This document shows positions 7,002 through 9,046 of a stretch of DNA of 10,301 bases, piece after piece. Source of the stretch: Providencia sneebia DSM 19967 (GTDB lineage: Bacteria; Pseudomonadota; Gammaproteobacteria; Enterobacterales; Enterobacteriaceae); assembly GCF_000314895.2 (NCBI RefSeq), contig NZ_CM001773.1, forward strand, positions 3,293,687 through 3,303,987. Direction: 5' to 3'. Each line of letters starts with the position of its first letter. Position 1 is the stretch's first letter. The position numbers were made by a program, and so were the translations under genes. The notes beneath the pieces were generated by a model, which saw nothing but the letters and a program-made list of their open reading frames with translations, was not told the DNA's origin and ran no database searches.

Positions 7002-7009
7002 AATACAAA

Positions 7010-7048
7010 AAGATCCTTAACGGCGCGCCATTGCGCCGCTAAGGTCTT
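7010..7048 (+). terminator. GC-rich hairpin after dksA, probable terminator
   Basis: The arms are 7010-7026 and 7033-7048. AAGA pairs with TCTT across one bulged T, CCTTA with TAAGG, then an A/C mismatch, then CGGCGC with GCGCCG, around the loop GCCATT. It starts 9 bases after the dksA stop. The 3' side ends TCTTAAAC rather than in a long T run, so it may work as a weak intrinsic terminator or as an RNA-stabilising 3' end. It separates dksA from the pcnB unit. Confidence 0.65.
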
Positions 7049-7141
7049 AAACAAACAAATGATTCATATTAATAAATGCCACTTCTTATTACCTACTTAC
7101 CTGCAAAAAGTTTATCCTATTTTTCGACTTAGCCGCTCATT

Positions 7142-7171
7142 AACTCTATTCATAATAACTCTATTCATAAT
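7142..7171. repeat. Perfect 15-bp tandem duplication
   Basis: AACTCTATTCATAAT occurs twice head to tail (7142-7156 and 7157-7171) with no mismatch. It lies in the gene-free spacer before pcnB. Two perfect copies suggest a recent slippage event and a possible variable site between strains. No function is evident. Confidence 0.9.
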
Positions 7172-7340
7172 TTTTTGTGTTAAAGGGCGCTTTATTGATG
7201 AAAATATTTCATAACAGGCTTAATATTCATGTCTTCATTAAGAGCTGCTATCGTCGAGCTGACTACATATCAATAAACAATAATAGCAATCAATTAATTA
7301 GGAAATTTACGACTTGTGAATGACCACAATAATGAATTAA

Positions 7341-7417
7341 AAACGTTCAGTCACAATGAAACAATTCTGATGGTATTATTAACACCATCTATGATTGAAT
7401 GTGACTTTTATGCGTTT
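7341..7417. repeat. Long imperfect hairpin with three nested helices
   Basis: Three pairings nest around one loop. The outer is AAACG 7341-7345 with CGTTT 7413-7417. The middle is AGTCACA 7349-7355 with TGTGACT 7400-7406. The inner is GATGGTATT 7369-7377 with AACACCATC 7381-7389, with one A/C mismatch and the loop ATT. Internal loops of 13 and 10 bases separate the middle and inner helices. The middle helix is followed by TTTT on the + strand (7406-7409). It could be an RNA structure, a decayed miniature mobile element, or a terminator-like element before the pcnB promoter. Confidence 0.55.
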
Positions 7418-7422
7418 AGCCA

Positions 7423-7451
7423 TTCTCAAAGAAAGTTCAGTAGGCTATGAT
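7423..7451 (+). promoter_or_regulatory. Candidate sigma-70 promoter of pcnB
   Basis: TTCTCA (7423-7428, 4/6) and TATGAT (7446-7451, 5/6) are separated by exactly 17 bases. The -10 lies inside a small dyad, GGCTA-TGAT-TAGCC (7443-7456). Transcription would start near 7458, about 44 bases before the ATT start codon. It is the best-placed promoter-like pair in the spacer, but no experiment supports it here. Confidence 0.4.
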
Positions 7452-7491
7452 TAGCCGCTTATTTTGTTTAATGAATATTCGTAATAACATC

Positions 7492-7504
7492 GAGGTGTAC
7501 TATT
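7492..7504 (+). promoter_or_regulatory. Shine-Dalgarno and ATT initiation codon of pcnB
   Basis: GAGGTG (7492-7497), a strong match to the 16S anti-Shine-Dalgarno, is followed four bases later by ATT (7502-7504), in frame with pcnB. The in-frame stretch from the stop TGA (7472-7474) to the ATG at 7559 contains no ATG, GTG or TTG. The codons after ATT read [14 protein letters not shown], homologous to E. coli PcnB FTRVANFCRKVLSR. E. coli pcnB is reported to initiate at AUU, a codon discriminated against by initiation factor IF3. Confidence 0.88.
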
Positions 7505-9046
7505 TTTAACCGAGTAGCAAATTTCTGCCGTAATATTTTATCACGAAATGACAAAGATATGCGTGACACTCAGGCAGCCGGTGAAAGGCCAGTCACTCAC
7601 TCTGCATCGACAGAAAGTCATTATCTAGAGCAGAATGCGAAACAAACGAAAAATACGGTTCGTCAATCCAAACGTGCCGACATTCAGGCAGAGAAAACAG
7701 AGACAATGACGACCGGAACAGATGAAAAGATCACAATCATCCCACGTTCAGAACATAATATTTCACGAAATGATATCAGTGATAATGCGCTGAAGGTATT
7801 GTATCGACTGAATAAAGGTGGCTATGAAGCTTACCTCGTCGGTGGTGGTGTTCGTGATTTATTATTAGGTAAAAAACCAAAAGACTTTGATATCACGACA
7901 AATGCGACTCCCGAGCAGATCAGAAAACTATTTCGCAATTGCCGTTTAGTTGGTCGCAGATTCCGTCTAGCACATATCATGTTTGGACCAGAAGTGATTG
8001 AAGTCGCTACTTTCCGTGGACATCATGATCAAAGTATCACTGAAGATAAAAACCTGTCACAACAAGCCCAAAACGGCATGTTACTCCGTGATAATATTTT
8101 CGGTTCAATTGAAGAAGATGCTATTCGCCGTGATTTCACAGTAAACAGCTTGTATTACAACATTGATGATTTCTCTGTTCGTGATTATGTCGACGGTTTA
8201 AAAGATCTCAAAGATGGGATCATTCGTTTAATTGGCGATCCGGAAACGCGATATCGTGAAGATCCCGTCAGAATGTTACGTGCGGTGCGCTTTGCGTGTA
8301 AGCTTGATATGCGCATTGAGCCAAAAACGGCACAGCCAATTAAGCAATTAGCGCCACTTTTAAGAGAAATTCCATCAGCAAGACTGTTTGAAGAATCACT
8401 AAAATTACTTCAAGCAGGACAAGGTTATGCAACCTATAAAATGCTGAAAGAGTACCACTTATTTGAACAACTCTTTCCCACAATCAGTATCCGATTCACG
8501 CTAAATAATGACTCGCCAATGGAGAAAATCATTGAGCAAGTCCTGAAAAATACTGATTTTAGACTCAAAAATGAACGACCTGTCAATCCCGCTTTCTTAT
8601 TTGCAGCAATGTTATGGTATCCCGTAACAGAACATGCAGAGAAGCTTTCTCAAGAAGGTGGTCTTGCTTATTATGACGCATTTGCTTTAGCAATGAATGA
8701 TATTCTAGACGATCAATGTCGGTCTATTGCCATACCTAAACGCATTACTACAACCATGCGCGATATTTGGCAGTTACAGTTACGCCTTCCGCGTAGGCAG
8801 GGTCGTCGTGCGAGTAAGTTAATGGAACATCAAAAATTCCGTGCTGCTTTTGATTTGCTAGAACTTCGCGCTAATGTTGAGCGCAGAACTGAGCTACAAG
8901 AACTCGCAACTTGGTGGGATGATTACCAAAGAGCAAATAATACTCAGCAACGTGAAATGATTGCTGAACTGGGTAGTTCACCTGTACGTAAACGCCACCG
9001 CCCTCGTAAACCATCACATGCCGCGCGTAAGCCGAATAAATCTTAG
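7502..9046 (+). CDS. pcnB: Poly(A) polymerase I
   Basis: PcnB adds 3' poly(A) tails to RNAs, marking them for degradation, and controls ColE1-type plasmid copy number through RNA I decay. With the ATT start at 7502 the product is 514 residues (E. coli 465). The first 15 residues match the E. coli N-terminus. Most of the extra length is a Q/T/K/E-rich linker of about 55 residues before [13 protein letters not shown]. The class II nucleotidyltransferase core follows: [10 protein letters not shown] (114-123), the metal pair D128 and D130 in [25 protein letters not shown] with the likely third acidic residue D211, and [12 protein letters not shown]. The C-terminal tail is very basic, for RNA binding. 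An ATG at 7559 is the first conventional start, but it lacks a ribosome site and would remove conserved residues. The TAG stop (9044-9046) lies inside the folK ribosome site, so the two genes are probably co-transcribed and translationally coupled. AUU initiation implies low, IF3-sensitive expression. Confidence 0.95.

Follow-up and report, generated by a model that had tools for sequence, protein, structure and literature searches.

A probable AUU start codon of pcnB in Providencia sneebia, conserved over much of the Enterobacterales

Introduction

Where does translation of pcnB, the gene for poly(A) polymerase I (PAP I), begin in Providencia sneebia, and if it begins at a non-canonical codon, why would a weak start have been kept? 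We addressed this question in a 10,301-nt stretch of the genome of P. sneebia DSM 19967 (contig NZ_CM001773.1, positions 3,293,687 to 3,303,987; referred to here as the window), whose plus strand carries sfsA, dksA, pcnB, folK and panB according to profile family matches.

AUU initiation of E. coli pcnB has long been known, with Binns & Masters 2002 reportedly the source, and to our knowledge experimental work on an AUU-started pcnB comes from E. coli. The AUU start is stated in excerpts of PMC9764084, PMC9410913, PMC4245954 and PMC1780047, three of which, including PMC9764084 and PMC9410913, cite Binns & Masters 2002. In a search covering the open-access literature and few subscription journals, we found no publication on a wide conservation of this start. 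Comparing sequences within the family, the order and the class, we conclude that P. sneebia pcnB is very probably translated from AUU 7502 and that the weak start is kept by selection. What was taken for a peculiarity of E. coli looks like a trait that pcnB has conserved across much of the order.

Results

The pcnB reading frame and its putative start codon

The gene was identified as a pcnB ortholog from its profile score (Table 1) and from its neighbors dksA and folK, both of which also lie near pcnB in E. coli EC14. Among named relatives, Providencia vermicola has the most similar PcnB (90% identity). The first-pass annotation of this DNA had proposed that ATT 7502 is the true start, pointing to GAGGTG four bases upstream, to the absence of ATG, GTG and TTG between the in-frame stop and ATG 7559, and to an N-terminus resembling that of E. 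coli. Each of these observations was borne out. GAGGTG is separated from ATT by the spacer TACT, no canonical codon was found in that interval either by reading or by script, and 12 of the 15 residues encoded from ATT match E. coli IFTRVANFCRKVLSR. ATG 7559 lies 19 codons past ATT 7502, and the next in-frame ATG is at 7706. The 18 nt around the Shine-Dalgarno sequence and the start, CGAGGTGTACTATTTTTA, are identical in E. coli and in the window. The further claim that E. coli pcnB itself uses AUU agrees with the published statements and with the RefSeq CDS of strain EC14, which begins at the same ATT (L003, 2560-3957). AUU is found at the homologous position after a Shine-Dalgarno sequence with no canonical start nearby, the N-terminus encoded from it is conserved, and the conserved Shine-Dalgarno sequence, peptide and codon together support ATT as the start. 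That ATT is one base away from ATG, GTG and TTG, as had also been stated, is correct for ATG only; GTG and TTG are two changes away.

From its complementarity alone, GAGGTG reads as a good Shine-Dalgarno sequence; excerpts of PMC9764084 describe the ribosome-binding site of E. coli pcnB as poor. Other candidate starts were rejected. Two in-frame ATA codons, at 7475 and 7484, have no Shine-Dalgarno sequence by eye, and the residues ahead of ATT 7502 differ even between members of the genus. A start at the GTG of GAGGTG would be in another frame, one of only four codons (GTG TAC TAT TTT TAA), which is not kept in E. coli.

Table 1. Features at the pcnB locus (positions in the window).
Feature	Position	Strand	Basis or remark
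Promoter-like element: TTCTCA (7423-7428), 17 nt, TATGAT (7446-7451)	7423..7451	+	9/12 consensus matches; aligned with E. coli
Stop codon TGA bounding the pcnB open frame	7472..7474	+	Read directly and by script
Shine-Dalgarno sequence GAGGTG, 4 nt 5' of the start codon	7492..7497	+	At -10 to -5 in 125/125 family CDSs
Putative pcnB start codon ATT (AUU)	7502..7504	+	Sequence read, E. coli alignment; relatives have ATT or ATC
N-terminal motif, (M) and 14 further residues	7502..7546	+	Mean major-residue fraction of residues 2-15: 0.85
Variable polar linker from motif to catalytic core	7547..7729	+	Gaps in E. coli alignment; core from residue 77
First canonical in-frame start, ATG; start of database protein P0001	7559..7561	+	Judged not to be the real start
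PcnB catalytic core, C-terminal part and stop codon	7730..9046	+	NF008634 815.6 bits (cut-off 702), TIGR01942 543.8

The region upstream of pcnB

Taken alone, the promoter-like pattern is no better than chance, with three sites found against 3.1 expected. The form TTCTCA-N16-18-TA[TC][AGT]AT was present upstream of 110 of the 125 distinct full-length pcnB CDSs from the GTDB family, mostly ending 47-55 nt before the start. The TATGAT hexamer sits within a short palindrome, GGCTATGATTAGCC (7443-7456); similar forms also occur upstream of pcnB in loci L175 and L180, and GCTATKATTAGC was seen upstream of 94 of the 125 family CDSs. We found neither a structured leader nor a known RNA element: predicted structure in the pcnB leader was at the level of chance (z -0.01), and an Rfam search of the window at gathering scores gave 0 matches. 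In E. coli EC14 gluQRS separates dksA and pcnB, whereas in the corresponding interval of the window (7002-7440) gluQRS was not seen and no ORF of at least 80 aa is present.

The N-terminal motif precedes a variable linker

Residues 17-30, which contain the methionine of ATG 7559, have a mean major-residue fraction of only 0.28 in the family set, against the much higher value of the motif ahead of them (Table 1). Linker length ranges from 14 to 135 residues in relatives, as measurable in 44 of the 125 sequences. The closest solved chains, PDB 3aqk-3aqn, cover query residues 77-490; they begin at the core, and the motif lies outside them. Treated as a helix, the motif has a hydrophobic moment above that of most shuffles in seven of eight peptides (fractions 0.002-0.043), the exception being the Pasteurellaceae-like peptide (0.441). 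This is no more than suggestive of an amphipathic N-terminus, and docking to a membrane or a partner would be a guess at its role.

The start site is conserved within the family

A motif search that allowed starts including ATG, GTG, CTG, ATA and ATT, and excluded TTG and ATC, matched 226 of 392 genomes of the GTDB family; among the matches listed, all begin ATTTTT. We then read 28 of the non-matching genomes: some have ATC at the start, others have ATT and a variant motif, and six have no motif; ATG in place of ATT or ATC was not seen in any of these 28. A pattern with ATG, GTG or TTG at the start site was found in 0 of 285 family genomes, the peptide being held fixed so that taxa with an altered peptide fall outside this test.

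The set of 125 family CDSs was drawn up with a motif rule that looks for Ile at the start position, and of the two scan patterns that yielded the named set, one likewise contains this Ile. The start is ATT in 112 of these CDSs and ATC in 13. TTT is the second codon in 124 and TTA in the remaining one. In the same set, Phe columns of the core use TTC 984 times and TTT 760 times, and Ile columns use ATC (420), ATT (295) and ATA (29). In a tree built from the core, two changes fall on the start codon and one on codon 2, as compared with 11-31 changes for core Ile codons (median 27, 8 columns) and 9-29 for core Phe codons (median 25, 16 columns). Codons 3-5 are also slow, with 10, 7 and 9 changes, and the slowest single Glu and Lys columns of the core changed 3 and 6 times, so rarity of change is not unique to codons 1 and 2. 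Judged from these alignments, GAGGTG at a fixed distance combined with rarely changing codons 1 and 2 is more than chance. The 285-genome pattern and the order-wide survey described below are less biased tests than the 125-CDS set.

An alignment of pcnB upstream regions had been suggested as a check on the proposed start; it gave conserved ATT or ATC, GAGGTG and residues 2-15, with variable residues 17-30. The accompanying claim that the weak start is under selection gained support from the exchange between ATT and ATC and from the lack of the ATG/GTG/TTG pattern in the 285 genomes.

The start site in the order and the class

To call starts over the order we used a procedure that takes the best Shine-Dalgarno sequence and gives a bonus to canonical codons. 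Over 268 order loci, 140 of them from the family, it returned ATT 204, ATC 26, TTG 9, ATG 4, CTG 2 and no start in 23. These counts include some misassigned loci: L178, L219 and L220, for example, were given a TTG downstream of an ATT that has GAGGTG, and L189 and L195 an ATT or ATC lying too far into the gene. No call was corrected. Outside the family, 97 of the 128 loci were called at ATT (85) or ATC (12); within it, seven of the 140 received no call. In f6, 29 of the 30 best-scoring matches start at ATT and one at ATC, and in f9 the numbers are 18 and 1 of 19. As a guess, f6 is Shewanella-like, f9 Pasteurellaceae-like and f21 Vibrio-like. Six f21 loci (L175, L224, L227-L230) appear to use ATG, while three others keep ATC or ATT (L225, L231, L226). 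ATG also seems to be the start in three f8 loci (L243, L245, L256) and in two of f20 (L237, L238). With groups in the order that appear to use ATG, the weak start would not be indispensable.

Beyond the order, 138 class genomes gave a match; we read 108 of these loci and kept the 97 that could be anchored, dropping 11 without an anchor. In 16 of the 97, the stretch from the upstream stop to the conserved core contains no canonical codon. ATT or ATC follows a Shine-Dalgarno-like stretch in several of these 16, in others not convincingly, and assembly errors are possibly behind some. As class controls, loci without a canonical start numbered 0 of 24 for folK and 23 of 27 for infC, each control consisting of the 30 best-scoring loci and not a random draw, less 6 folK and 3 infC loci that were dropped. 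Among its relatives, pcnB has a conserved non-canonical start with codons of the infC type, apart from the groups that appear to use ATG. The first-pass annotation had argued for selection from conservation in one more enterobacterium. That conservation is real and reaches well beyond the family, but in a single further enterobacterium it is not in itself surprising.

Annotation of the pcnB start in databases

P0001, a 495-aa database protein identical to the PcnB of the window, has ATG 7559 as its first codon and does not include the N-terminal motif. Among the best 120 of 7999 scored hits, 59 are without the motif (a count that rests on a regular expression), another 26 carry an upstream extension, and the remaining 35 have their start exactly at the site. 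The annotation problem, a conserved motif missing or extended upstream, concerns 85 of these 120 hits. The prediction that standard gene callers shorten PcnB is borne out in part: P0001 is such a case, but some pipelines place the start correctly, as in EC14.

Tandem infC genes in Providencia

Outside the window, the same genome carries two tandem infC genes (L442, 2315-2848 and 3198-3740; G000:C1:1967500-1973500), flanked by what we take to be thrS and rpmI. The same gene order appears in a figure legend of PMC10846113, and the excerpt of that paper names infC_1 and infC_2 of Providencia rettgeri without comment. Two infC genes lie close together in 24 of 24 genomes searched in the genus. Among 382 family genomes, two were found in all five of the same genus and, by reading of the table, one in the others, with doubtful counts in G413 (a genome 49% complete) and in G727 (where the better of two matches has an E of only 1e-42). 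In 12 other genomes that we read, each of the two copies has an ATT start preceded by GGAGGAAT. An infC tree places all 26 Providencia sequences in a single clade (0.868) with a copy 1 clade inside it (0.987), and copy 2 is not separated as a clade of its own. Eight infC pairs have dN of 0.01-0.07, low against dS of 0.43-1.13. Just past its start, copy 1 of the window's genome (L442, about 2300-2330) no longer shares the frame of its ATT, unlike in the 12 others; this may be a sequencing error or a broken copy.

Discussion

In the mechanism that we propose, GAGGUG at its fixed 4-nt distance would set AUU 7502 as the start, probably on a short leader, and the start codon appears to be kept weak on purpose. 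IF3 discriminates against codons such as AUU and AUC. The Shine-Dalgarno sequence would recruit 30S subunits and the AUU or AUC would lower initiation through this discrimination, leaving PAP I scarce; in parallel with infC, its synthesis may then increase at low IF3 activity. Initiation at AUU would give the protein a conserved, mostly amphipathic N-terminal motif of 15 residues, tethered to the catalytic core by the variable linker. A fixed Shine-Dalgarno sequence, exchange between AUU and AUC and a near-frozen codon 2 form the pattern expected under selection for a weak start. The response to IF3 is a step that we hold tentatively, as possible rather than probable; the selected property may be this response or low expression as such.

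A canonical start, at ATG 7559 or at an upstream codon in relatives, would mean that the motif is not made at all. The identical database protein does begin at ATG 7559, and some relatives have a canonical codon six or seven codons upstream. These upstream codons differ among relatives and have no counterpart in the window, however, and it is the peptide read from ATT that is conserved while the residues around ATG 7559 are not, which makes a canonical start very improbable. Alternatively, AUUUUU and the Shine-Dalgarno sequence could be frozen as an RNA element, such as a contact for a small RNA, Hfq or S1, with the weak start a by-product. The near-invariant TTT at codon 2, in a gene whose core Phe codons vary, would fit, but other families keep AUU with the second codons AAA, CTT, TTA and ATT, and neither the leader structure nor the Rfam search of the window gave any sign of such an element. 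We regard this explanation as improbable, if less so than a canonical start.

The remaining alternative concerns the IF3 step and not the AUU start: AUU or AUC may be kept only to hold PAP I low, a static tuning in which IF3 is not a regulatory input that matters. We give this an even chance. The interchange of AUU and AUC is what would be expected if any weak codon sufficed. On the other side, low expression could equally be reached with a weaker Shine-Dalgarno sequence and AUG, yet GAGGTG is invariant in the family set, and infC keeps the same class of codon. Selection for a weak AUU start, our preferred reading, is common to static tuning and to an IF3 response. Why a poly(A) polymerase should keep an IF3-sensitive start is a testable question, with natural contrasts between AUU, AUC and the groups that have apparently moved to AUG.

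A broader proposal, which we consider rather unlikely as a whole, is an ancient IF3 regulon made up of two genes, pcnB and infC. Selection would have held the weak AUU/AUC start at least since an ancestor that lived early within the GTDB order Enterobacterales, and the start would recur elsewhere in the class, tying polyadenylation to the state of initiation. In Providencia this would involve two IF3 paralogs that start at AUU in the genomes read, with purifying selection acting on both.

The nearest known system is E. coli pcnB, which has the same start codon, the same GAGGTG at the same spacing and nearly the same N-terminal peptide; it differs in that the linker of the window's protein is 48 residues longer and in that EC14 has gluQRS between dksA and pcnB, an interval in which the window has no ORF of 80 aa. 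The autoregulated infC gene, encoding IF3, also has an AUU or AUC start after a Shine-Dalgarno sequence, frequently so across the class. It encodes the discriminating factor itself, whereas pcnB would be a target and not autoregulated. According to excerpts of PMC5472188, Streptomyces sigR has a GTC start repressed by IF3. It is a regulatory gene whose non-canonical start is controlled by IF3, as proposed here for pcnB; gene, codon and phylum are all unrelated. In S. aureus, the AUU start of cvfC1 and the AUA start of ccpN were mapped by ribosome profiling (excerpts of PMC13009471). These genes are unrelated to pcnB, but like it they combine a conserved non-canonical start with a Shine-Dalgarno sequence, which in S. 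aureus is strong and extended.
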